26,158 bases of DNA from a virus, in the IMG/VR virus record IMGVR_UViG_3300024264_002480, positions 1 through 26,158 of that record. The stretch is one strand, 5' to 3'. Under the pieces are notes generated by a model. That model searched no databases. It worked only from the letters and a program-made list of their open reading frames with translations, and was not told the origin of the DNA. This document shows positions 14,814 to 26,158 of this stretch, in pieces. Numbering within the stretch: the first letter of the stretch is position 1; the number at the start of each line of letters is the position of its first letter. A program made the position numbers and the translations under genes.

Positions 14814-16015
14814 CAAATATTAATATTACAACAAGTCCAACAGGACGAAGCCCAGAAAATAAATACTTTTTTGGAGAAAAAACAAAGTGTTTAGACAAGA
14901 CTCGACCAAAGTATTATAAAGTTGGAGAAATGGAAGACTTTCTTCAATTTGCAGATTTGATGATGCCTAGGATAATATCAGAACATATTTATAGAAAACC
15001 ATTATATCTTGAAACATGTGGTATAAAATTTCAAATTAATACTAACGATGAAAGACACGAGCAATTTGTCAAGAATATGTTTGATGTAGTCCCTAACAAC
15101 GAGACTATTCCAGATTGGACGATTTGGCATAATACAGAATTAAAAGTTGATGAACCAAAAATCTATGTAAATCTTGATACTAAAACTATGTTAATTGCTG
15201 GGACAACATTTCTAGGCGAAATCAAAAAAGGTATATTTGGTGTAGTTAGTTTTGAATTACCAAAACATGATATTTTACCAATGCATTGTAGTGCTTTTAC
15301 ATATAATGATACGACTAATTTAATGTTTGGATTAAGTGGCACTGGTAAAACAACTCTTAGTAGTGATCCAGAATACCGATTGATTAGTGATGATGAAGTA
15401 TCTTGGAATCATAATGGAATTGAAATGATTGAAACGGGTTGTTATGCAAAGAGTGAAGGGTTAACACCAGAGACACATAAGACTATATTTGATGCAGTAG
15501 AAAAAGCAAGATTAGAAGATTGCTTAGTTGTAGAAAATCCAGGTGTACCAAATGCGAGATTAAGTTATCCTATTACATGTGTTGAAAATGCTTATCATGA
15601 GCCTCAACAATTTAATCATCCAACTAATATCTTTTTTCTTACTATGGACGCAAAAGGCGTATTTCCTCCCGTATCTAAAATTTCTGGTGAAACTGTAAGA
15701 CGCTTTTTTGAAACTGGATATACGAGCCAAATGCCTGGAACTGAACAGGGAGCAACAGAAATTAAGCCACTCTTTAGTCCGTGTTATGGTTCGCCATTTA
15801 TGCCAAGACCAATACATGTTTATAGTGATTTACTAATGCAAAAAATTCAGTCTAATGATTGTAACGTATATCTTATTAATACTGGTATGGATAAAGCTGG
15901 TCATAGATACTCATTAGACTTTACTAGAAATTGTGTCAAAGAAGCAATTAACCATGGCACTCGTGACGATAGTGAAAATGTGTTAAACATCTTAGAAAGT
16001 TTAATAAATGATTAA
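14810..16015 (+). CDS. ATP-type phosphoenolpyruvate carboxykinase homologue
   Basis: This 401-residue protein is a shortened PckA (E. coli 540 aa). PckA turns oxaloacetate and ATP into PEP, CO2 and ADP, the entry to gluconeogenesis. Core elements are kept in order: TGRSP with R13 (E. coli R65), GEIKKG with K139/K140 (K212/K213), MHCSA with H159 (H232), P-loop GLSGTGKT (174-181), kinase-2 SDDE (193-196, metal ligands), NARLSYP with R250 (R333), the lid [10 protein letters not shown] (near 308-317) and HRYS with R366 (R449, adenine site). Missing are about 50 N-terminal residues, part of the first domain and the C-terminal tail. The tyrosine before GGEMKKG in E. coli is Phe134. It overlaps gp43 and the mutase gene. 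An altered substrate is possible. Confidence 0.88.
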
Positions 16016-16724
16016 TTTTATTTTTGATGTTGATGGAACTCTTACTCCAAGTAGAGGTAAAATGGATGAAGAGTTTTCAAAGTTTTTCTTTGATTTTTGT
16101 TGTTTAAATAAAGTATATTTAGTAACAGGTAGTGATATTCAAAAAACACGAGAGCAGGTTGGAGAAGTCATTTGGGGAATGACTAAGCGTAACTATCAAT
16201 GTTCCGGTAATGACGTATGGGAACGTGGTAAGAATATTCGTACTTCTACTTTAAAGTTACCAGACGAAATGTGGGGTTATTTGAATAGAGCTATCACTGA
16301 TAGCTCATTTCCAGTTCAAAATGGACAACACATTGAGGAGCGTCCTGGGCTATATAACTTATCTATTCCAGGAAGAAATATAGGCAATCGTACTCGAATT
16401 CAATATGTAGCATATGACAATCATACTAATGAAAGAAATAATATTGCTGCTAAGTTGCAAGACCAATTTCCGTTGTTTGAATTTAAAGTCGCAGGAGAAA
16501 CAGGTATAGATATTACTGCTAAAGGAAATAATAAATCACAAATTCTTGATGATTTTGATCCTTTAGATATTATCTATTTCTTTGGAGACACGTGCGATAA
16601 GGGCGGAAATGATCATGAAATCGCATTAGCTGTACATGATCGTGGAGGAGAAAATAGTACATATCAAGTAAATAGTTGGGAAGACACCTTTTCTTATTTA
16701 CAAGCTATTAAAAATGTAGTATAA
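16008..16724 (+). CDS. Eukaryote-type phosphomannomutase-like HAD enzyme
   Basis: A 238-residue HAD protein aligned along its length with human PMM2 (246 aa). It has FDVDGTLTPSR (nucleophile D7 and acid D9), VTGSDIQKTREQVG, HIEERPGLYNLSIPGR (substrate-phosphate arginines), GETGIDITAKGNNKSQIL (with K176) and YFFGDTCDKGGNDHEI (D194, D202). These enzymes move phosphate between C6 and C1 of mannose, and some also of glucose, giving the 1-phosphate needed for nucleotide sugars. It overlaps the PEPCK homologue by 8 nt and its end contains the next promoter. A simple phosphatase function cannot be excluded. T4-like phages rarely carry this family, as far as I know. Confidence 0.85.
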   Translation: MINFIFDVDGTLTPSRGKMDEEFSKFFFDFCCLNKVYLVTGSDIQKTREQVGEVIWGMTKRNYQCSGNDVWERGKNIRTSTLKLPDEMWGYLNRAITDSSFPVQNGQHIEERPGLYNLSIPGRNIGNRTRIQYVAYDNHTNERNNIAAKLQDQFPLFEFKVAGETGIDITAKGNNKSQILDDFDPLDIIYFFGDTCDKGGNDHEIALAVHDRGGENSTYQVNSWEDTFSYLQAIKNVV

Positions 16725-16725: not shown

Positions 16726-16750
16726 ACTCTATATAATGATGGAGAATATA

Positions 16751-17164
16751 ATGACTAAAGTATGGTTTAATGACATCGAGCAAATGCATGAAAAGTTTGG
16801 TGTCAACGATTGGTTTGAAGCCAATAAAGATAATAAAGAATTGATGGCAAAATATCTTGCATTTCGTATGTCAATGATTAAAGAAGAATATGACGAGACT
16901 ATGGATGCTATTGAAGCAAAAGATGCTGAAGAAGTAGTTGATGGTTTAATTGATATGTGTGTATTTGCTATTGGCACTCTTGAAGTATTAGGTGTTAATG
17001 GTAATGAAGCATGGACAAAAGTATTCAATGCTAATATGACTAAATCTCCTGGTGTTAAGCCTGGTCGTCCTAATCCGTTTGGATTACCAGATTTGCTTAA
17101 GCCTGAAGGATGGACTGCACCAACTCATAGAGGTAATCATGGAAGTCTCAGCGACATTCTTTAA
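16751..17164 (+). CDS. MazG-like nucleotide pyrophosphohydrolase
   Basis: A 137-residue all-alpha NTP pyrophosphatase-like protein. The metal-binding pattern is visible as MIKEEYDETMDAI (EExxE type) and AEEVVDGLIDMCVFAIGTL (ExxD type). The C-terminal KSPGVKPGRPNPFGLPDLLKPEGW is common in phage members of the family. ATG 16751 is chosen for GGAGA at 16741-16745; the upstream ATG 16736 has no site of its own. Marine phages commonly carry MazG-like proteins; roles proposed are dNTP pool control or removal of non-canonical nucleotides. In a hydroxymethyl-dC phage, hydrolysis of unmodified dCTP (the T4 gp56 job) is a testable alternative. Confidence 0.78.
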   Translation: MTKVWFNDIEQMHEKFGVNDWFEANKDNKELMAKYLAFRMSMIKEEYDETMDAIEAKDAEEVVDGLIDMCVFAIGTLEVLGVNGNEAWTKVFNANMTKSPGVKPGRPNPFGLPDLLKPEGWTAPTHRGNHGSLSDIL

Positions 17165-18330: not shown

Positions 18331-18511
18331 AGCTGAAATTAATAATTTAGTAAAAGCTTATCTTGATAATGGTGGTAGAATTCAAAAAATTCCAACATCC
18401 AGGATCAAAAAACATACTAATTTGGAGAAACCAAATTATTATCTTAATAGAAGATCTTTATCAAAAGCAAAGGCAAACAATGCCTATGTTTCAACAGAAA
18501 GAGGAGTATAA
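18323..18511 (+). CDS. Small basic protein, unknown
   Basis: A 62-residue basic protein (predicted strongly positive) overlapping the previous gene by 8 nt. The opening NNLVKAYLDNGGRIQKIP is a style seen in short phage proteins of unknown function, and the rest is Lys/Arg/Asn-rich (RIKKHTNLEKPNYYLNRRS). Nucleic-acid binding is plausible from charge alone. AAGGAA upstream supports translation. Confidence 0.65.
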   Translation: MHKAEINNLVKAYLDNGGRIQKIPTSRIKKHTNLEKPNYYLNRRSLSKAKANNAYVSTERGV

Positions 18512-18512
18512 A

Positions 18513-18884
18513 ATGAAAGATAAACATTCAATTAGATTTCTGCATCAATGCGCAGAAGTACAAATCAAAAAAAGTAATGACTATCAAAATCCAAATTCTC
18601 GAGTAAAACAAGCTCACTATTATCCTCGAGGTTGTGCTAGTATTCTTGATACAATGGCTGCAAAAGTTTTGCGAATGCAGTCTGTTATCGAGGCTATGGA
18701 ACTAGATCCAAACTACGCCCCGAATTTTGAATCACTTGAAGACTCTTGTATTGATCTTGCTAATTACGCGTCGTTCTTTGCTGCTTATATGAATGGTGCC
18801 ATTGATGGTCAAACAGATGATCGTGATTTTTTAAATCGTCCTATAGTACCTAAAGGAAAAACAAATGAGATCGTTCAGTCTTAA
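18513..18884 (+). CDS. Nmad1/DUF1599-like protein
   Basis: A 123-residue helical protein. KKSNDYQNPNSRVKQAHYYPRG, then ILDTMAAKVLRMQSVIEAM and LEDSCIDLANYASFFAAYM, follows the nucleotide-modification-associated domain 1 (DUF1599) pattern: a KxxDY motif, a helix with K..R, and E/D..DLANYA. That family is helical, MazG-like in style, and is found beside modified-base genes. ATG 18513 sits 6 nt after GAGGAG (18501-18506); the frame is open further upstream but overlaps the previous gene. The setting just before a gp42 cluster fits. The exact reaction is unknown. Confidence 0.6.
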   Translation: MKDKHSIRFLHQCAEVQIKKSNDYQNPNSRVKQAHYYPRGCASILDTMAAKVLRMQSVIEAMELDPNYAPNFESLEDSCIDLANYASFFAAYMNGAIDGQTDDRDFLNRPIVPKGKTNEIVQS

Positions 18885-19344
18885 AGATATAGATTTGATA
18901 GAACTCTTGGCCAAAGCAAAGGCTGAGAGTCAACTTATTTTTGATAAAGAGTCTACTCGAAAGGGTAGAACTCTTGATGATATTACTGTCACTAATATGT
19001 ATGGTCTTGCGGCTGAACAGTTTCTTATTGAAAAATGCAATTTCACTGATAATCCTTTACCATATCAGGATGTAATATCTCCAGAAGGTATTGATGTTGA
19101 GGTAAAAGTAACAAAAGTTTTTAACTATATTCCTAATGTGTTATATCGTTTAAAAGAAAAGCGTAAAAAGTATCCTAGCTTATACCAGCCTGATTGGGTT
19201 ATCATATATATAAATGATAAAAAGACTCGGGATTATGTTTTTGCTGGTACATATAAATGGAATGGTAAAACATATGTTACTAAAGATTGGTCTTTAGAAA
19301 TTGATAGAGAATTTCTTGCAAACTATGAAGGAGCAAATAATTGA
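18865..19344 (+). CDS. PD-(D/E)XK-like nuclease, putative
   Basis: A 159-residue protein with the core pattern of the restriction-endonuclease fold. A helix with E (YGLAAEQFLIEKC) precedes QDVISPEGIDVEVKVTK, where D..ExK forms the catalytic triad, and a strand-rich half follows (WVIIYINDKK, YVFAGTYKW). No specific family is recognised. It overlaps its upstream neighbour by 20 nt and the cupin gene by 4 nt. In a phage with modified cytosine, a nuclease against unmodified host DNA is an attractive role (compare T4 EndoII/EndoIV, which attack unmodified C-DNA), but this is inference; a Holliday-junction or repair role is equally possible. Confidence 0.5.
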   Translation: MRSFSLKDIDLIELLAKAKAESQLIFDKESTRKGRTLDDITVTNMYGLAAEQFLIEKCNFTDNPLPYQDVISPEGIDVEVKVTKVFNYIPNVLYRLKEKRKKYPSLYQPDWVIIYINDKKTRDYVFAGTYKWNGKTYVTKDWSLEIDREFLANYEGANN

Positions 19345-19685
19345 AAGCTGGAAAAGTCTGGGGAATGACTGAACTTATTGAAGCTAATGGTACTTTAGAA
19401 TTTCATCGTATTGAAATGGAAGCTACAGGAGTATGTTCAAAACATCTTCATGAATATAAATGGAATGGTTTTTATATCGAGTCAGGAATAATGCTTGTAC
19501 GTGTATGGCAAAATGATTATAATTTAATTGATGAAACTGTTTTACAGGCCGGTGATTATACTAAAGTAAAACCTGGTGTTTATCACCAATTCGAATGCAT
19601 TGAGCCAGGTGTAGCTTTTGAACTGTACTGGGCAGAATTTAACCACAACGATATTATTAGGGAAACAGTAGGTCATATAGAATGA
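19341..19685 (+). CDS. Cupin-fold protein
   Basis: A 114-residue single-domain cupin. Motif 1 is KHLHEYKWNGFYIESG (H35, H37, E38 or E47) and motif 2 is GDYTKVKPGVYHQFE (G71, PG at 78-79, H82), enough for a metal site. The layout resembles the cupin part of mannose-6-phosphate isomerase/GDP-mannose enzymes and small sugar-binding cupins. Start is TTG 19341 with AAGGAG (19328-19333); its TTGA overlaps the upstream stop. It directly precedes a cytidylyltransferase, so a sugar-phosphate isomerase or epimerase role is suggested by context only. Confidence 0.7.
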   Translation: MKAGKVWGMTELIEANGTLEFHRIEMEATGVCSKHLHEYKWNGFYIESGIMLVRVWQNDYNLIDETVLQAGDYTKVKPGVYHQFECIEPGVAFELYWAEFNHNDIIRETVGHIE

Positions 19686-20089
19686 AAGTAGGATTTACTT
19701 GTAGCACCTTTGACTTGCTTCATGCTGGACATATAATGATGCTCAGAGAAGCTAAATCACAATGTGATTATTTAATATGCGGTTTACAAGTAGATCCCAC
19801 TCTGGATCGTAAAGAAAAGAATGCTCCAATTCAAAACATAGTAGAAAGACAGGCTCAACTTACTGCAATAAAATATGTCGATGAAGTCATTATTTATTGT
19901 ACAGAAGCTGATTTGTGTGATATAATAAACATGTATCCAATTAATGTTAGGATACTTGGTGAAGAGTATAGAAGCAAAGATTTTACTGGTAAGGATGAAT
20001 GTCGCAATCGCGGTATCGATCTATACTTTAACAAACGTGATCATCGCTTTTCAACTAGCGATCTAAGAAAGAGAGTATGTGAACAATGA
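19682..20089 (+). CDS. Cytidylyltransferase (TagD-like), copy 1
   Basis: A 135-residue nucleotidyltransferase of the glycerol-3-phosphate cytidylyltransferase type. The N-terminus GFTCSTFDLLHAGH holds the HxGH CTP-binding motif (H14, H17); the second signature is the C-terminal RFSTSDLRKR (family RTxGxSTTxL position). Length matches TagD (about 130 aa). Such enzymes make CDP-glycerol, CDP-choline, CDP-ethanolamine or related CDP-alcohols. It overlaps the cupin and gp42 genes. A close paralogue lies at 23753-24217. The substrate cannot be read from sequence. Confidence 0.88.
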   Translation: MKVGFTCSTFDLLHAGHIMMLREAKSQCDYLICGLQVDPTLDRKEKNAPIQNIVERQAQLTAIKYVDEVIIYCTEADLCDIINMYPINVRILGEEYRSKDFTGKDECRNRGIDLYFNKRDHRFSTSDLRKRVCEQ

Positions 20090-20775
20090 AAATGAATTCT
20101 GTAAAAGATGTTCGTCAATTCTTTGTTGATGAACTAAATGATCAAGCATTCACTATTGATAAGACTGGCGCACGAACTATTGAAATGATTGGTGCTTCAT
20201 TTATTGCAGATGAAGCATCTATATTCGGTAAACCATCTCACTCTTATATTCGAAAAGAATTGGATTGGTACGATAGCCAATCAACTAATATCTTTGATAT
20301 TAATAAAGAGTCTGGTGAAGATGCTCCTGCAGCTTGGAAATATGCTGCTAATACGCATGGTGAAATTAATTCAAACTATGGTCATCTGATCTATGCTAAT
20401 AAATATTTTGATCAATATCAAAATGCATTATCTGAATTAGATAAAAATCCTGATGGTAGACGTGCTTCTATGATCTACAATCGGCCTTCTATTTGGGTGG
20501 AGTTTAACGAAAATGGAAAATCTGATTTCATTTGTACTAACGCTGTCACTTACTATATTCGTGATAATTTACTTCATTGTGTAGTCCAAATGCGGTCTAA
20601 TGATGTAGTGTTTGGTTATAAGAATGATTATGCTTGGCAACGCCACGTACAAAATAAATTAATAGAAGATTTAAATAATATTTATAGAGTTAAAGATCCG
20701 GTTAGTACTGGCATGATGATATGGCAAGTACAAAATCTTCACGTATATGAAAGGCATTTTAATCTTGTCACATAA
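20086..20775 (+). CDS. 42: dCMP hydroxymethylase gp42
   Basis: A 229-residue thymidylate-synthase-fold enzyme that matches T4 gp42 (246 aa) much better than ThyA. Shared are DKTGARTIEMIGASFIADE, YIRKELDWY, GEINSNYG, RRASMIYNRPS, FICTNAVTYYIRD (nucleophile C150, T4 C148), MRSNDVVFGYKNDYAWQ (D181, T4 D179) and IWQVQNLHVYERHF. The Cys is followed by TN, as in gp42, where ThyA has H. gp42 converts dCMP plus methylene-THF to 5-hydroxymethyl-dCMP, so this phage should carry modified cytosine. The C-terminus stops right after HFNLVT, about 20 residues shorter than T4. It overlaps the cytidylyltransferase and dCMP deaminase genes. Confidence 0.93.
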   Translation: MKMNSVKDVRQFFVDELNDQAFTIDKTGARTIEMIGASFIADEASIFGKPSHSYIRKELDWYDSQSTNIFDINKESGEDAPAAWKYAANTHGEINSNYGHLIYANKYFDQYQNALSELDKNPDGRRASMIYNRPSIWVEFNENGKSDFICTNAVTYYIRDNLLHCVVQMRSNDVVFGYKNDYAWQRHVQNKLIEDLNNIYRVKDPVSTGMMIWQVQNLHVYERHFNLVT

Positions 20776-21226
20776 TACTGATCGTCAACATAAATGGGAT
20801 CTAAGATATTTAGAGCTGGCTAAAACTATTGCTGGATGGTCTAAAGATCCTTCAAGTCAGATTGGAGCTATAGCTGTAGGTTCAAAAGGACAAGTCTTAG
20901 CTCAAGGATATAATGGATTCCCGCGTGGGATGATGGATAGTCAACATCTTTACATTAATAAAACAGAAAAATATGCTCGAATAATACATGCTGAAATGAA
21001 TATGATCTTTAATGCATCATTTAATGGTGTGTGTCTTAATGGTTCAAGTGTATATGTTTCTGGATTACCAACTTGTTCTGATTGCGCAAAAGGTCTTATT
21101 CAAGTTGGTGTAAAGGAATTAATCATGCCTAGAGAAAAAATTGAAGATCGTTGGTATGACTCATGGCAACGGTCAAAAGAATATTACAAAGAGGCTGGTC
21201 TTAAATATAGATGGGTCGTGCTGTAA
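20747..21226 (+). CDS. cd: dCMP deaminase
   Basis: A zinc-dependent deaminase of the dCMP (ComEB/T4 Cd) class, converting dCMP to dUMP for dTMP synthesis. Key parts are WSKDPSSQIGAIAV, the HAEMN motif (zinc His and catalytic Glu) and PTCSDCAK (zinc cysteines). The open frame starts at ATG 20747, overlapping gp42 by 29 nt; TTG 20765, 10 nt behind AAAGG and giving MSHNTDRQHKWDLRYL, agrees better with family N-termini. Being shorter than T4 Cd (193 aa), it lacks the T4 insert. Next to gp42 it competes for the same dCMP pool, so the pair sets the ratio of thymine to modified cytosine. Confidence 0.9.
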   Translation: MKGILILSHNTDRQHKWDLRYLELAKTIAGWSKDPSSQIGAIAVGSKGQVLAQGYNGFPRGMMDSQHLYINKTEKYARIIHAEMNMIFNASFNGVCLNGSSVYVSGLPTCSDCAKGLIQVGVKELIMPREKIEDRWYDSWQRSKEYYKEAGLKYRWVVL

Positions 21227-21234
21227 ACTTTTAG

Positions 21235-21263
21235 TTTACATTCTATTGAAAATGTAATATAAT
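21235..21263 (+). promoter_or_regulatory. Early-type promoter for glycosyltransferase unit
   Basis: TTTACA (21235-21240), a 17-nt spacer and TATAAT (21258-21263), 60 nt upstream of the glycosyltransferase ATG at 21323. Confidence 0.8.
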
Positions 21264-21322
21264 ATAATCATTAAAACTGTTATAACTATAACATGAGCTA
21301 CACTGAAATAAAGGAAGTAAAA

Positions 21323-22747
21323 ATGAAAGTTGCTTTTATCTTTGGAAAAGGTATTGAAGGATGCGGTGTTACCAAAGGCGCTAACATATTCGAATCTTGG
21401 TTAGTATCTCAAGGGCATGAAACAATCGTAATTGATTTTGATAATAAACAACACTTTGGCCGCGCTAAAGATACTGAATGGAAAAGCACTATTCATCGAG
21501 TTGAATCCAATCATGAAATTAAAGATACCCAACCAGTAATTGATGAAGTAAACACTTGCGATATTGCAATCATACATTCATTCCCAACTCGCAAAAATGG
21601 AAAGTACATTGATCGTTTCCGTGAATTTGTTGAGCATATCAGTGATCCCATTATTGTAATACATGACCATGCTATTACGAAGCAAACTATCAATAGACAA
21701 ACCCAAGCTGCTGAATTATTTTCTTTAGCAGACATTGGTGTTACACAATCGTTTGAAGGTTATTCTAACGATTGTTATCTACACACTGATCCAGGCCTTG
21801 AAGGTTGTCTTATGGAGAATCCAATATGGGTTAATACTAGTGAATATGATAAACACCGTGCCTCGCTTGAAGACCGTAAGAAACACTTTATATACATGGG
21901 CCGCATGTCAACACTTAAAGATCCAGGTATGATCTGCCGTATTGAACCATATTTAAAGAATGATTGGGATTTAACTTTGATGGGATGTGAACGTTCAATA
22001 TCATCTATTGGAATTCCAGAATCTAAAACTCTTGCCACTGATCCAGCACCTTACCATAAATCATATCAACCAAAGATTAAATTTATTGGCACAAATTCTG
22101 CAGGCGAACACTATGAACCAGCTAAAGAAAAAGAAAAGACTGGTACCACGATTACAGCATATGATAGTTACAAATATGATTTTGGAATGAATCAACTTGG
22201 TAGTTCTATGGCAGCTTGGTGTGGATATCGTCTAGGTAATCCAAAAGAGTATGGCCATCGTATGGAATATACTGTAATTGAATCATTTCTTTTATCTCTT
22301 CCTGTCATTAGTAAACATTTTGCTGAAAACGCTGTATCACCTGAAGGTAAAAAATGGGGTGAATATTATGGACCACTTATATCTAAAGCAACATGTGAAG
22401 AAGAGCTAGCAGCAGAATTAAATAGGATCTATAATAATAAAGAAGAATGGATTGCTCGTACAAAAGCTTGTCAAGAGTTAGTCTATAATTTTAATGATAT
22501 TGAAGTACTTGGTCCTAAGTTTTTAGATTTTGTGTTGACAAAAGGAAAAAGACGTAATAAAATAGAATTTATAGATAGGATTTCAAGTTATTTTCCAAGC
22601 GCAAAGCAAAGACGTGAAGATGGTGAGATTATTGTATCAACCCCAGGAAGTGTATTAAATGAAAAAGCGTATACATTGGTAGATGGAAAACAAAATGAAA
22701 TCAAAGAACCAAAAGATGTTGGTGCAACACTTGAAGGATTTTTCTAA
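21323..22747 (+). CDS. DNA glycosyltransferase, T4 alpha-glucosyltransferase-like
   Basis: A 474-residue GT-B glycosyltransferase. The N-terminus KVAFIFGKGIEGCGVTKGAN matches T4 AGT (RICIFMARGLEGCGVTK), and IVIHDHAITKQTINRQTQAAELFSLADIGVTQS and SMAAWCGYRLGNPKEYGHRMEYTVIES align with AGT counterparts. AGT moves glucose from UDP-glucose to hydroxymethylcytosine in DNA; the RB69 homologue is tied to arabinosylation. It is longer than AGT (400 aa), with an inserted region near 230-280 and about 70 extra C-terminal residues ending GATLEGFF, which looks like the gp43 clamp tail. ATG 21323 has AAGGA 7 nt upstream; ATG 21293 has none. The donor sugar is unknown. Confidence 0.88.
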   Translation: MKVAFIFGKGIEGCGVTKGANIFESWLVSQGHETIVIDFDNKQHFGRAKDTEWKSTIHRVESNHEIKDTQPVIDEVNTCDIAIIHSFPTRKNGKYIDRFREFVEHISDPIIVIHDHAITKQTINRQTQAAELFSLADIGVTQSFEGYSNDCYLHTDPGLEGCLMENPIWVNTSEYDKHRASLEDRKKHFIYMGRMSTLKDPGMICRIEPYLKNDWDLTLMGCERSISSIGIPESKTLATDPAPYHKSYQPKIKFIGTNSAGEHYEPAKEKEKTGTTITAYDSYKYDFGMNQLGSSMAAWCGYRLGNPKEYGHRMEYTVIESFLLSLPVISKHFAENAVSPEGKKWGEYYGPLISKATCEEELAAELNRIYNNKEEWIARTKACQELVYNFNDIEVLGPKFLDFVLTKGKRRNKIEFIDRISSYFPSAKQRREDGEIIVSTPGSVLNEKAYTLVDGKQNEIKEPKDVGATLEGFF

Positions 22748-23772
22748 TGTACCATAAACGCATAGTTGTCGACTTTGACGATACTTTAGCTTTCCATCAA
22801 AACCGTAAATTCGATGAAGCATTGCCAAACAAACCTCTTATTGAAAAGCTAAATAAGCTACATTCTGAGGATTGGCAAATTGACATCTTTACTGCTCGTG
22901 GTTCTATATCATGCAAAACCCGTGAAGATGCTCGTAAGAAATATGAAAAGAGCATGCTTAATTGGCTTGATAAAAATAATGTAAAGTTTAATATTCTCTC
23001 ATTTGATAAGCCTTTAGCAGCTTATTATATTGATGATAAAGGTATTGTGCCTGAAGATTTTCTTGAAATTAATATTCGTGAACTCGAGGGTGGATTATCT
23101 GGCGGTGAAATCTATACCGATGGTAAAGTAGTACATAAGCAAGATAGCAATGCACATCAAACACGTGATTGGTTTGATAACGCTAAAAAGATCGGCATTA
23201 AAACACCTAGTATTCATCGAGTTGTTGGTGAAACTATTACTATGGATTATATTAATCACGACGAAAACTTCTTTTCAAATAATTTTTGGATGGCTTTAGC
23301 CACAGTTCAAACACAATTAGATAAAATGAAATCATTAAAAGCAGTTGACAATTTAAAGTTTAGTGATTATATTGAGCGTATTGAAGAACATGCTAAAAAT
23401 TCTAGTAAAACAAAATTAATTGAAGTGGCTTCAAGCTTAAAGCAGTATGAGATAAAACGTGGTTATTCTCATGGTGACTTTGGCATTAAAAATATGCTAT
23501 TCAATAATTGTGATATGCATTTAATTGATCCAATCTGTGGAATATTTGGATCTACTGAATTGGATGCTGCAAAGTTTTGTGCAAGCTTACTTATTAATCT
23601 ATACCCGATTGGATTGTTTAAGCAATCTTTAAATTATCTGGCTCTAGCTAACGATATAAATAAAAATATGCTGGTATCATTAGTGGCGGCAGAAGTGACT
23701 AGGGTGTACAAATACCATCCTAACAAATATTTTATTATGGAGTGTATTGATAATGTTTACAAACAAAGCTGA
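22747..23772 (+). CDS. HAD phosphatase fused to APH-type kinase
   Basis: A 341-residue two-domain protein. Residues 1-110 form a small HAD domain like those of capsule biosynthesis: VVDFDDTLAF (D9, D11), IFTARGS (T49, R51) and AAYYIDDKG (D96, D97). Residues 113-341 look like an aminoglycoside/choline-type phosphotransferase: GGLSGGEIYTDGKVVHKQ as nucleotide-binding lobe with a Lys near 131, TMDYI hinge, YSHGDFGIKNML (HGDxxxxN, catalytic D244 and N249) and HLIDP (D261). Such kinases phosphorylate small alcohols or sugars. Placed just before a cytidylyltransferase it recalls the LicA-LicC order (kinase then CTP transferase). The ATG overlaps the glycosyltransferase stop (TAATG). Confidence 0.8.
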   Translation: MYHKRIVVDFDDTLAFHQNRKFDEALPNKPLIEKLNKLHSEDWQIDIFTARGSISCKTREDARKKYEKSMLNWLDKNNVKFNILSFDKPLAAYYIDDKGIVPEDFLEINIRELEGGLSGGEIYTDGKVVHKQDSNAHQTRDWFDNAKKIGIKTPSIHRVVGETITMDYINHDENFFSNNFWMALATVQTQLDKMKSLKAVDNLKFSDYIERIEEHAKNSSKTKLIEVASSLKQYEIKRGYSHGDFGIKNMLFNNCDMHLIDPICGIFGSTELDAAKFCASLLINLYPIGLFKQSLNYLALANDINKNMLVSLVAAEVTRVYKYHPNKYFIMECIDNVYKQS

Positions 23773-24217
23773 GATAGCAAGAAAAGTTGGCAAGCCTATT
23801 GAAGAAGTAAAAATTGGTTTTACCTGTTCTACTTTTGATTTATTACATGCCGGTCATATTGTAATGCTACAAGAAGCTAAAGAGCTTTGTGATTATCTCA
23901 TTTGTGGTCTACTAACTGATCCTACAGTTGACCGCCCTGATTCAAAAAATAAACCAATTCAAACTCCATTTGAGCGCTATGTTCAATTGGCAGGTTGTCG
24001 TTTTGTTGATGAAGTCATTCCATTTAGTACAGAACAAGAAATCGTCGATATGATTTTAACTATTCAGCCACATGTTAGGATCGTTGGTGAAGAATATAAA
24101 GGCACAGATCATACTGGTATTGGATTATGTTCTATTCACTACAACAAACGTAAGCACTCGTTTTCATCTACAGATTTAAGAAATCGTGTAGTAGAAGCAG
24201 TACAGGGAAAAAAATAA
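23753..24217 (+). CDS. Cytidylyltransferase (TagD-like), copy 2
   Basis: A 154-residue paralogue of the gene at 19682. VKIGFTCSTFDLLHAGHIVMLQEAKELCDYLICGL is nearly the same as in copy 1, as are VRIVGEEYKG and the C-terminal HSFSSTDLRNRV. It has an 18-residue N-terminal extension, TNKAEIARKVGKPIEEVK. ATG 23753 is chosen with GGAG at 23739-23742; TTG 23747 in the same frame is possible. The first 20 nt overlap the HAD-kinase gene. Two copies with diverged middles (VDPTLDRKEK versus TDPTVDRPDS) suggest two alcohol-phosphate substrates or a heteromer. Confidence 0.87.
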   Translation: MFTNKAEIARKVGKPIEEVKIGFTCSTFDLLHAGHIVMLQEAKELCDYLICGLLTDPTVDRPDSKNKPIQTPFERYVQLAGCRFVDEVIPFSTEQEIVDMILTIQPHVRIVGEEYKGTDHTGIGLCSIHYNKRKHSFSSTDLRNRVVEAVQGKK

Positions 24218-25420
24218 ATGATTTACAGACACGCGTCTATTGTACCACTTATTGGTGGTGAAACAATCGCTCAAGAAAATGTTTTTGGAACAAGACCCGA
24301 ATATATTTTAAGCTATTCCGCATTTGAAGCTAACGACAGACAATTAGTTGAATACTATGATAATAAAGTGCCTTATCATCATTTAGATGGTGATACTCCT
24401 TATAGCGTACCAACTGTTGACGTTATCAATACAGTTTGCCCATGCGCTGGATTATCAAGTCTTAGCCCATCTGCATCGTCTACTAATGCTAATAATGACT
24501 GGATGGTAAATACTGCTCGGCATGTTTTAAGTACACTAAAACCTAAAGTATTTTGGGGTGAAAACGCCCCGCGATTAGCTAGTAAAATGGGTGCGCCGAT
24601 TGTTGAGCAGTTAAAAAGAATTGCTAGTCAAAACGGATATACATTTAGCATTTACAAAACAAAATCTATACTTCATGGACTAAGCCAAGTACGAGATCGT
24701 ACTTTTTATTTTTTCTGGCAAGGTGATAAAATACCTATGTTAAGTTATATTGAACGCAAACATGAAAAAATTGAAGATACTATTCGTAATGTAGATCTAC
24801 ATGAAGATGACCCTATGAATATAATTGTTAATAAAAAAATTCCAAGTGAAAATCCATTTTATAAATATGTACTTGAAGAACTTAATAATGGTATTTGTCA
24901 TTCTGAATTTCAAGATAAAATTGTAAAGAGTACTAATCCACTTGATGAAATTGAAAAATCTGGAATTAAATACGATAAAGTACACGAGTGGATGAAAGAA
25001 AAAGGATTTGAAAATGAAGCTGGTAAATGTAATCGTATGTACCACAAACTAAAAAGTGGCGGTAATATTATGCGTAAGACTACCGAAATACCTAAAGATT
25101 ATATTGGTGCGTTTGTAGGACATATGCCAGGATATCTTACTCATCCAGATGAAGATCGCTATTTGACTATTCGAGAATGTCTTTCTATTATGAAACTTCC
25201 AGGTGATTTTATGTTACAGGGCGGAGTAAAAAATCTTAATATGATTTGTCAAAATGTTCCTGTAACTACAGCACAAGATATGGCTGAACAAGTTCAATCT
25301 TTTGTACATGGTAGACTTGATAATCAAATGATTGATGCCAAATTTGCTATTCAGTGTAATAAAAAACAAACTATAAATTATGAAAAAGTAAGTAACACAT
25401 TAGAGGAATTTATATGTTAA
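24218..25420 (+). CDS. C5-cytosine methyltransferase homologue
   Basis: A 400-residue protein with C5-MTase motifs: CPCAGLS (motif IV, C76), GENAPRL (motif VI ENV-like), SQVRDRTFYF (motif VIII QxRxR) and, after a long variable region (170-290) at the target-recognition position, TIRECLSIMKLPGDF (motif IX region) and a motif X-like NVPVTTAQDMAEQV. Motif I is degenerate (VPLIGGETIA), so SAM binding is not assured. Normally these enzymes flip a cytosine and attack C6 with the motif IV Cys. In a phage that already has hydroxymethylcytosine the substrate is an open question. It ends NTLEEFIC, similar to the gp43 and glycosyltransferase tails. It starts at the stop of copy 2 and overlaps the next gene by 7 nt. 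Confidence 0.78.
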   Translation: MIYRHASIVPLIGGETIAQENVFGTRPEYILSYSAFEANDRQLVEYYDNKVPYHHLDGDTPYSVPTVDVINTVCPCAGLSSLSPSASSTNANNDWMVNTARHVLSTLKPKVFWGENAPRLASKMGAPIVEQLKRIASQNGYTFSIYKTKSILHGLSQVRDRTFYFFWQGDKIPMLSYIERKHEKIEDTIRNVDLHEDDPMNIIVNKKIPSENPFYKYVLEELNNGICHSEFQDKIVKSTNPLDEIEKSGIKYDKVHEWMKEKGFENEAGKCNRMYHKLKSGGNIMRKTTEIPKDYIGAFVGHMPGYLTHPDEDRYLTIRECLSIMKLPGDFMLQGGVKNLNMICQNVPVTTAQDMAEQVQSFVHGRLDNQMIDAKFAIQCNKKQTINYEKVSNTLEEFIC

Positions 25421-26158
25421 AATTAAAAATATCTGTTATTGGATGTGGATTTGTAGGCAAAGCTATTATTAATGGTTTTGATGAAACCCTATGTGACATA
25501 ACTCCAATTGATATTAAATATGATACTACAGTAGAAGATACTAATCCATATGATGATATTTTTTTCGTATGTTTACCAACACCTATGAATGATGATAGAT
25601 CGGTTAATGCTGAACTAGTAATTGAAACTGTTAAATGGTTAAAGCTTAATAGAGCTGGACATATTGTAATAAAATCAACTGTCACGCCTGATATTATAGA
25701 TAAACTTTCTGGTGATAGAGTAGTCTATAATCCTGAATTTCTAAATGAAAAATCTGCAGATAAAGATTTTATTAATCCACCAATGCACATATTTGGCGGG
25801 CATATTAAAGATACAACCCATATTGAGAAAATATATAAAAAATATAGTAAATGTAAACCTTGCCCATGCCACCATGTGACATTAAAAGAAGCAAGCTTTA
25901 TTAAATATGGAATTAATTGTTTTCTTGCTACAAAAGTATTATGGTTTAATCAATTCTATGATATAATACAAAAACATGATTGTAATTTTGATGAGATTAC
26001 TTATGCAATGAGATCCGATCCAAGAATTGGTAACTCTCATACAAGTGTTCCAGGATTTGATGGTAAAATGGGTTTTGGTGGAGCTTGTTTTCCAAAAGAC
26101 ACTTCAGCATTTTTAGATTTTGCAATATCATTTTCTTTGTTAGATGAAGTGATTAAAT
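25414..26158 (+). CDS. UDP-glucose 6-dehydrogenase-like, partial (3' end beyond window)
   Basis: The first 248 residues of a nucleotide-sugar dehydrogenase of the UDP-glucose/GDP-mannose family. NAD-binding VIGCGFVGKA (GxGxxG, 10-15), LPTPMNDD (near 54-61), STVTP (88-92), NPEFLNEKSA (106-115), the LKEASFIKYGIN helix (K164, N168) and FGGACFPKDTSAF with catalytic C225 are all there. The product of the usual enzyme is UDP-glucuronate, precursor of UDP-xylose and UDP-arabinose. GAGGAA precedes ATG 25414. The frame runs off the right edge. Next to a hydroxymethylcytosine glycosyltransferase it suggests a donor other than plain UDP-glucose. Confidence 0.88.
   Translation, partial: MLKLKISVIGCGFVGKAIINGFDETLCDITPIDIKYDTTVEDTNPYDDIFFVCLPTPMNDDRSVNAELVIETVKWLKLNRAGHIVIKSTVTPDIIDKLSGDRVVYNPEFLNEKSADKDFINPPMHIFGGHIKDTTHIEKIYKKYSKCKPCPCHHVTLKEASFIKYGINCFLATKVLWFNQFYDIIQKHDCNFDEITYAMRSDPRIGNSHTSVPGFDGKMGFGGACFPKDTSAFLDFAISFSLLDEVIK

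Follow-up and report, generated by a model that had tools for sequence, protein, structure and literature searches.

We analyzed a virus fragment of 26,158 bases from IMG/VR (record IMGVR_UViG_3300024264_002480; the whole stretch is called the window here), which carries T4-type replication genes on the plus strand. From position 19341 to the end of the window, it encodes a cupin, a TagD/RfaE-II-type nucleotidyltransferase (CT1), a gp42-type dCMP hydroxymethylase, a dCMP deaminase, an AGT-like DNA glycosyltransferase, a HAD-kinase fusion (HADkin), a second nucleotidyltransferase (CT2), a homologue of C5-methyltransferases (MTase homologue) and a UDP-glucose-dehydrogenase-like protein (UGD), in this order. 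A preliminary description made from the sequence alone had placed a cytosine hypermodification locus at 20086-26158. All genes that it named are open frames at the positions given, with database support, and the T4-type gp42 together with an AGT-family transferase bears out a locus of this kind. The functional unit, however, is narrower than that range, and one of the cytidylyltransferases, CT1, lies just outside it. In the following, CT stands for cytidylyltransferase-like proteins (nucleotidyltransferases of the TagD/RfaE-II type), GTX for an unrelated glycosyltransferase-like protein, and TS for homologues of thymidylate synthase, such as gp42.

The unit was delimited by blastn comparison with close relatives that match the window on both sides. 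In L188, the nucleotide identity is 94.3% up to position 21216 and 84.8% from 25420; in L190 and L192, it is 89.1% up to 21216 and 90.4% from 25419. Between these flanks nothing matches: the 4.2 kb of the window (exchangeable interval, 21217..25418, plus strand) correspond to unrelated stretches of 2.1 kb in L188 and 2.9 kb in L190 and L192. All three relatives retain gp42, the dCMP deaminase, CT1 and UGD. The clean replacement of exactly the AGT-like, HADkin, CT2 and MTase-homologue genes in three close relatives indicates that these four genes are one exchangeable cassette. The cupin, CT1, gp42, deaminase and UGD, judged by these alignments, constitute a constant frame outside the cassette, and neither UGD nor CT1 is part of the co-inherited unit. 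In L193-L195, similarity is also lost after 21327, but these contigs stop before UGD. The replacement (7320-9343 in L188, 11126-14001 in L192) encodes a phrog_13881-type protein (function unknown) or a look-alike and a protein of 351-357 aa without Pfam match, to which L192 adds a PLP-enzyme-like gene; this alternative module is likely to be another cytosine modification. The converse exchange was also observed. Seven contigs, L003 among them, have the cassette with about 85% of nucleotides identical (mostly 21307-24735), whereas their gp42 stretch is 73% identical and their polymerase protein, where covered, 49%.

In order to see which genes accompany each other, loci were selected by HADkin (the best 80 of 113) or by other genes of the locus (the best 80 of at least 527 and the best 80 of at least 570). 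The profiles used for counting were partly built from loci that were then counted, so that these match by construction: the GTX profile comes from XG4, L023, L029, L039 and L043, the TS and kinase profiles from L023 and L024, and the MTase profile from XG4, S-TIM54, phage G and cassette loci. After dereplication at 95%, 33 of the 80 HADkin-selected loci remained; of these, 32 have a CT nearby, 29 an MTase homologue, 22 a TS homologue, 15 AGT and 15 GTX. Sixteen HADkin loci extend at least 3.5 kb upstream and at least 4 kb downstream, and 15 of them have a TS homologue, a CT, an MTase homologue and exactly one type of glycosyltransferase (7 AGT, 8 GTX). As the same activation genes stand with either AGT or GTX, the same donor genes appear to feed two unrelated transferases. 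The HADkin-CT pair has cytosine-type TS homologues and GTX-type genes as neighbours in the gut-phage records L023 and L024 (in L024, GTX is in two frames). L132 carries a HAD protein, a kinase, a nucleotidyltransferase, GTX, an epimerase and an MTase homologue as separate genes, those functions without a profile having been read by eye.

The AGT-like enzyme is encoded at 21293..22747 (plus strand; PF11440, 1.7e-6; phrog_2888, 1.2e-32). ATG 21323 is the more likely start, because most relatives begin there and a purine-rich stretch lies in front of it. Similarity to T4 AGT (1y6f, E 5.5e-10) is found in the N-terminal part only. Seven T4 contacts are kept, G15, H114, H116, R204, K209, E306 and E311, whereas H140 is replaced by Gln; K209 and E306 are included on our assumption that they are contacts of T4 AGT. 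According to PMC6024577, G15, R204 and E311 contact the UDP phosphate and ribose, and H114, H116 and H140 the glucose. The preliminary description had counted on intact catalytic residues: the gp42 Cys and Asp and the AGT phosphate and ribose contacts are present, but one glucose contact is not.

To assess this position, 43 dereplicated AGT-like proteins were aligned with T4 AGT, 20 of them encoded beside HADkin and CT and 23 elsewhere. G15, R204, K209 and E306 are kept in all 43, and E311 is Asp in five proteins without HADkin. At the position of T4 H140, Gln was found in 20/20 proteins beside HADkin and in 0/23 of the others, which have His (20), Tyr (2) or Phe (1); the two AGT-like enzymes of phage G have Phe. 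H114 is His in 20/20 proteins beside HADkin, and H116 is Arg in one of those 20. We infer that the change from His to Gln goes with a donor other than UDP-glucose. Pyle et al. (2024) reportedly tested virus glycosyltransferases from metagenomes, and relatives of the window's enzyme may be among them.

Adjoining the transferase gene, HADkin (22747..23772, plus strand) is a HAD phosphatase of the EcbF/BcbF type fused to an APH-type small-molecule kinase. The HAD domain (DFDDT at residue 9) matches the capsule-biosynthesis phosphatase family TIGR01689 at 4.2e-11, below the cut-off of the model, and PDB entry 9iqw at E 1.1e-9 (profile A2). This entry is near-identical to p051 of phage RB69; a literature search for 9iqc, 9iqu, 9iqw and 9ir2 by name found no paper. 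The kinase half carries HGDFGIKN at residue 242 (HGDxxxxN motif) and weakly matches methylthioribose kinase (E 0.061), while a related gut-phage protein in L023 matches Choline_kinase at 7.1e-4, below the Pfam cut-off. CT2 (23747..24217, plus strand; PF01467, 5.3e-13; HAGH motif) probably starts at ATG 23753. It matches glycerol-3-phosphate cytidylyltransferase 1coz (E 7.1e-13) as well as the models for RfaE-II (TIGR02199, 7.3e-22) and TagD (TIGR01518, 1.3e-14), both below their cut-offs, so that use of CTP and use of ATP are not separable by sequence. HADkin looks virus-borne. A scan of 84,980 bacterial and archaeal species genomes, seeded by short patterns and therefore missing distant relatives, found 7 relatives; 5 are HAD only, and the other 2 lie in metagenome-assembled genomes with the full TS-AGT-HADkin-CT-MTase set. 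In two records (L039:9010-9927 and L043:9005-9922), a 305-aa gene stands between HADkin and CT; the L039 copy was scanned and had no Pfam or PHROG match.

In the constant frame, the gp42-type gene (20086..20775, plus strand; phrog_160, 4.8e-45) aligns with T4 dCMP hydroxymethylase 1b49 over 6-228, nearly its full length (E 1.1e-67). It keeps the wild-type Cys and Asp that are altered in the solved variants 6a9a and 6l18; in T4 gp42 numbering, we take the catalytic residue to be Cys148 and the cytosine-selecting one to be Asp179. D181 is invariant in our TS alignment (A6). Across the loci surveyed, Asp was read at the selecting position in 109 of 113 TS hits, and the remaining four are three misread by the pattern (two were re-read, both Asp) and one fragment. 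Homology strongly suggests that the enzyme makes 5-hydroxymethyl-dCMP. Next to it lies the dCMP deaminase gene (20747..21226, plus strand; PF00383, 5.8e-16; phrog_174, 2.3e-34). A MazG/PRA-PH-type pyrophosphohydrolase (16736..17164, plus strand; PF01503, 3.7e-8; phrog_671, 3.1e-24), whose gene is found between gp43 and gp42 in those cassette relatives that cover the stretch, is a candidate enzyme for lowering dCTP. In cyanophage S-TIM54, a gene annotated ThyA (L021:7120-7962) reads RSNDMATGVPLD, which has Asp in the cytosine-selecting position; it lies 2 kb from an MTase homologue (L021:9992-11209).

We interpret the locus as a replaceable DNA-hypermodification cassette in a T4-type replication block, by which an activated donor made by the phage is put on hydroxymethylcytosine by the AGT-like enzyme, and assign this reading a probability of about 0.62. 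From the gene set, the block exchange, the co-occurrence and the conserved active-site residues, we infer the reactions, their order and their purpose as follows. The gp42 of the constant frame would convert dCMP to 5-hydroxymethyl-dCMP, which would then be polymerized into DNA, as is known for the hydroxymethylated nucleotide of T4. The deaminase, and perhaps also a MazG-type enzyme, would lower the pool of plain dCTP. From a phosphosugar or a comparable alcohol, HADkin and CT2 would make a nucleotide-activated donor that replaces host UDP-glucose, and the AGT-like enzyme would move the donor group onto the hydroxymethyl group of hydroxymethylcytosine in DNA. The MTase homologue would be a further DNA-cytosine enzyme of the pathway. 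The purpose would be protection from restriction and other DNA-directed defence, a protection known for T4, RB69-type and Thanatos DNA. As had been proposed in the preliminary description, a sugar donor made by phage genes, and not plain host UDP-glucose, is the best reading.

Several observations weigh against this interpretation. The HADkin-linked AGTs form one branch of the tree (100/100), so the change from His140 to Gln counts as one change without repeated events, and the residue at the position of T4 His114 is variable in AGTs that lack HADkin as well. The AlphaFold model of the AGT-like enzyme is unusable (pLDDT 40.6). Three of the eight GTX calls are loci, or near-copies of loci, from which the GTX profile was made, and L028, the sole exception among the 16 well-covered loci, has HADkin and CT without a TS homologue, glycosyltransferase or MTase homologue. 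Of the 35 dereplicated loci selected by gp42 that extend at least 7.5 kb downstream, 1 has HADkin nearby, 25 have the MTase homologue, 13 AGT and 2 GTX; gp42 thus does not need the cassette. Enzymes like CT2 also occur in cyanophages amid other sugar genes, e.g., in S-B43.

One alternative would be ordinary T4-style glucosylation, in which the AGT-like enzyme uses host UDP-glucose and HADkin and CT2 serve something else. Membership in the AGT family and the kept contacts, including the glucose contacts H114 and H116 besides G15, R204 and E311, agree with it. However, Gln in place of His140 only beside HADkin (20/20 vs 0/23), the gain and loss of the block as one and the CT near 32 of 33 HADkins make it unlikely. 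An improbable extension is a two-layer coat, with a sugar added by the AGT-like enzyme and, on top of it, a polyol phosphate provided by CT2 in CDP-activated form. It would account for the resemblance of CT2 to glycerol-3-phosphate cytidylyltransferase, but RfaE-II scores as well as TagD for CT2, and the Pfam and PHROG scans recognised no polyol-phosphotransferase in the cassette. HADkin, CT and the glycosyltransferase could also be genes of the capsule or lipopolysaccharide type that decorate a surface glycan or virion protein and lie next to gp42 by chance. The HAD family TIGR01689, the TagD/RfaE likeness of CT2 and the position of a CT2-like gene next to dTDP-glucose dehydratase and epimerase genes in S-B43 point in this direction. 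Against it, cytosine-type TS and MTase homologues co-occur with these genes in unrelated phages, and the HAD of RB69 sits in a DNA-arabinosylation module. A plain capsule role was rejected on the 7 relatives in the pattern-seeded genome scan, and we consider surface decoration as a whole quite improbable.

The decorated base might instead be 5-hydroxycytosine, as reported for Mosigvirus. The TS homologue of RB69, described as a 5-hydroxy-dCMP synthase in PMC13390438, also has Asp; the residue therefore marks cytosine and not the hydroxymethyl product, and fits hydroxymethyl and hydroxy products alike. The window's gp42 is only 25% identical to RB69 p048, but matches the T4 hydroxymethylase over nearly the whole length, and we regard 5-hydroxycytosine as very unlikely. 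Even less probable is a route in which UGD supplies the AGT-like enzyme with UDP-glucuronate or with a pentose derived from the latter, although UGD (25414..26158, plus strand, cut by the window end) adjoins the cassette and keeps the catalytic GFGGACF. The complete protein, read from the almost identical contig L001 (98% of nucleotides identical over 14 kb), which extends beyond the window end, has 272 aa, with the NAD-binding and central domains and without the C-terminal UDP-binding domain; TIGR03026 covers 68-303 of 413. UGD also remains in place when AGT, HADkin and CT2 are swapped out, and a gene survey of L003-L017 found no UGD beside the cassette. The Pfam scans of the window picked out no UDP-glucuronate decarboxylase. 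In Phage C48C1, an epimerase and UGD precede uvsX, and the 42 kb searched gave no gp42-type, AGT or MTase match. UGD was therefore rejected as the donor maker, and the uronic acid predicted in the preliminary description is weakly founded, UGD being a gene of the constant frame whose product has no UDP-binding domain. A pentose may still be the sugar: RB69 and Thanatos, with genes of the HAD, kinase and nucleotidyltransferase types, carry pentoses. The SIS isomerase family PF01380, the type of the arabinose-5-phosphate isomerase of RB69, was detected in 14/14 control genomes but in 0/12 cassette-type records, which are all or nearly all fragments.

The last gene of the cassette encodes the MTase homologue (24218..25420, plus strand; PF00145, 7.1e-18). 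We aligned 89 dereplicated proteins with that of the window (90 rows) and mapped the positions of HhaI by PDB alignments. The catalytic Cys of motif IV, Glu-Asn-Ala of motif VI and Arg-x-Arg of motif VIII are kept in 90/90 rows. The position of HhaI Asn304 in motif X is Gln in 90/90 (Gln345 in the window), and motif I, in a register anchored on GG, is V/I-P-L-I-G-G in nearly all rows (VPLIGG in the window) and not FxGxGG. A structural model of moderate quality (pLDDT 67.2, pTM 0.70) found C5-methyltransferases first in Foldseek (3ubt, E 2.9e-9, TMq 0.48; CmoX 8yf3, 3.5e-9). The modelled fold is that of a C5-methyltransferase; the model is insufficient for the pocket.

A C5-methyltransferase homologue that serves cytosine hypermodification in a marine T4-like phage is known from the CmoX system of S-B43. 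In PMC12783734, CmoX is defined by SPPC and Arg350, and an Arg at the place of HhaI Asn304 binds the carboxymethyl group. The protein of the window was rejected as a CmoX, since it has VCPC and Gln345 instead. In 12 records, which may be fragments, there was no match above the cut-off of TIGR00740 and one spurious weak match. We take this model to be that of the Cx-SAM (carboxy-S-adenosylmethionine) synthase CmoA. Of 80 MTase-selected loci, 35 have a TS homologue nearby, 53 have AGT or GTX, and 61 have at least one of the two. Eighteen records were searched whole, 14 of them without a TS homologue near the MTase homologue: TS was found in 7 (four were read, all Asp) and not in the other 11, which may be fragments. 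A TET-type route, with 5-methylcytosine made first and then oxidized, was considered for MTase homologues without a nearby TS homologue. Conversely, when 11 records selected by gp42 or HADkin were searched in full, 3 gave no MTase homologue, so gp42 does not require it. Going by these counts, the MTase homologue often accompanies a predicted cytosine coat. Tentatively, and with odds well below even, we suggest that the family (VPLIGG...PC...ENAP...RxR...QNVP) is a further hypermodification enzyme and not a methylase. Its Cys might attack C6 of cytosine or hydroxymethylcytosine, after which either a non-methyl group is transferred from an altered cofactor, as by CmoX, or the hydroxymethyl group is activated for attachment of the donor.

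Phage-made sugars on modified cytosine are already known from RB69-type phages and Thanatos, and the locus is best read as a rewired variant of such a system. The arabinosylation module of RB69 and other Mosigvirus phages likewise sits between DNA polymerase and uvsX and shares with the window a HAD of the 9iqw family (p051, which the literature places in a gene module associated with arabinosylation of DNA), APH-type kinase and nucleotidyltransferase functions and a TS homologue with the cytosine-type Asp. In RB69, however, the nucleotidyltransferase that goes with the kinase is of the RmlA type (p053/p052), and there are a SIS isomerase (p055), the 5-hydroxy-dCMP synthase and a different transferase, whereas in the window HAD and kinase are fused, CT2 is of the TagD/RfaE type and gp42 of the T4 type. 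The 26 kb of RB69 searched gave no AGT, CT or MTase-homologue match. T4 itself shares the gp42 type and the AGT family; the donor-making genes, the MTase homologue and the Gln for His140 are added or altered in the window. Shewanella phage Thanatos, compared by its published description, has sugar activation genes beside a dCMP hydroxymethylase-type gene (TH1_060, with glycosyltransferase-like and phosphotransferase domains, and TH1_063, a pyrophosphorylase), but these enzymes differ from those of the window.

Two isolates come close as well. Pseudoalteromonas phage vB_Psh_XG4 has, in one run, a gp42-type gene, a HAD, a nucleotidyltransferase-APH fusion (weak APH match), GTX, another glycosyltransferase-like gene and an MTase homologue. 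Its nucleotidyltransferase is non-orthologous, the kinase is not fused to HAD, and GTX takes the place of AGT. By tblastn, the XG4 nucleotidyltransferase-kinase was found in 6 phage records only; RB69 was absent, so the likeness claimed to p053/p052 is one of domain type only. Bacillus phage G (L020, 205000-240000) carries within 15 kb two AGT-like genes, an annotated HAD and nucleotidyltransferase, the kinase-like gp311 (E 1e-6), the MTase homologue gp301 and the cytosine-type TS gp319, besides a deaminase. Here, too, the nucleotidyltransferase is non-orthologous and the kinase unfused to HAD, and gp310 gave no match to our HAD profile. It is possible that phage G, a long-cultured giant phage, has a complete cytosine hypermodification gene set. 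Together with L132, these phages indicate that similar functions were assembled from different proteins. The preliminary description had known of no described system with this set. Nothing contradicts this in the literature searched, which covers few subscription journals and contained no description of the HADkin-CT2-AGT-MTase set, although much of the logic recurs in RB69 and Thanatos. Within the scope of these searches, the novel features are the way in which HADkin and CT2 are wired, the replacement of the complete block at a constant position, the accompanying Gln and the MTase-homologue family beside gp42.

The remainder of the window fits the cyanophage-like core recognized earlier: the backbone is T4-like and nearest to marine phages of the Kyanoviridae type, and the DNA polymerase is closest to that of Phage C48C1 (Kyanoviridae, 53.5% identity), followed by Synechococcus phages. 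No tRNA was found in a search of the window. In L001, UGD is followed by uvsX, gp41, MazG and thyX-type genes, the last names having been read from the sequences. Upstream of gp42 lie the cupin (19341..19685, plus strand; PF07883, 1.2e-6), also kept in L188 and L192, and CT1 (19682..20089, plus strand; PF01467, 2.8e-13), which adjoins gp42 and is 58% identical to CT2. Of 75 loci selected by gp42, counted without dereplication, 35 have a CT1-type gene next to gp42, among them loci that lack HADkin. A small protein at 18363-18884 (phrog_1485, function unknown) has look-alikes near gp42 in L188, L039 and L043. Further upstream are a HAD protein of the eukaryotic phosphomannomutase family (16008-16724; PF03332, 8.3e-23; phrog_29277, function unknown) and a homologue of ATP-type PEP carboxykinase in this T4-like phage (14810-16015; PF01293, 1.2e-93; GLSGTGKT motif). 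The latter is common to L001 and L002 and not among the genes matched in L003-L017.

Taken at this strength, the locus suggests that phages may swap whole base-coating modules at one place while the rest of the genome stays nearly unchanged, so that the chemical coat of a genome could change in one recombination event. Because the donor-making genes are paired with a residue change in the transferase pocket, the sugar specificity of DNA glycosyltransferases becomes testable, and two isolates, phage G and XG4, carry similar gene sets. The comparison also brings out, beside gp42, a methyltransferase-like family in which the catalytic residues are intact and the cofactor side is altered. If our tentative proposal for this family is true, it would be a common partner of marine gp42-type phages and would give the cytosines of one genome two fates.

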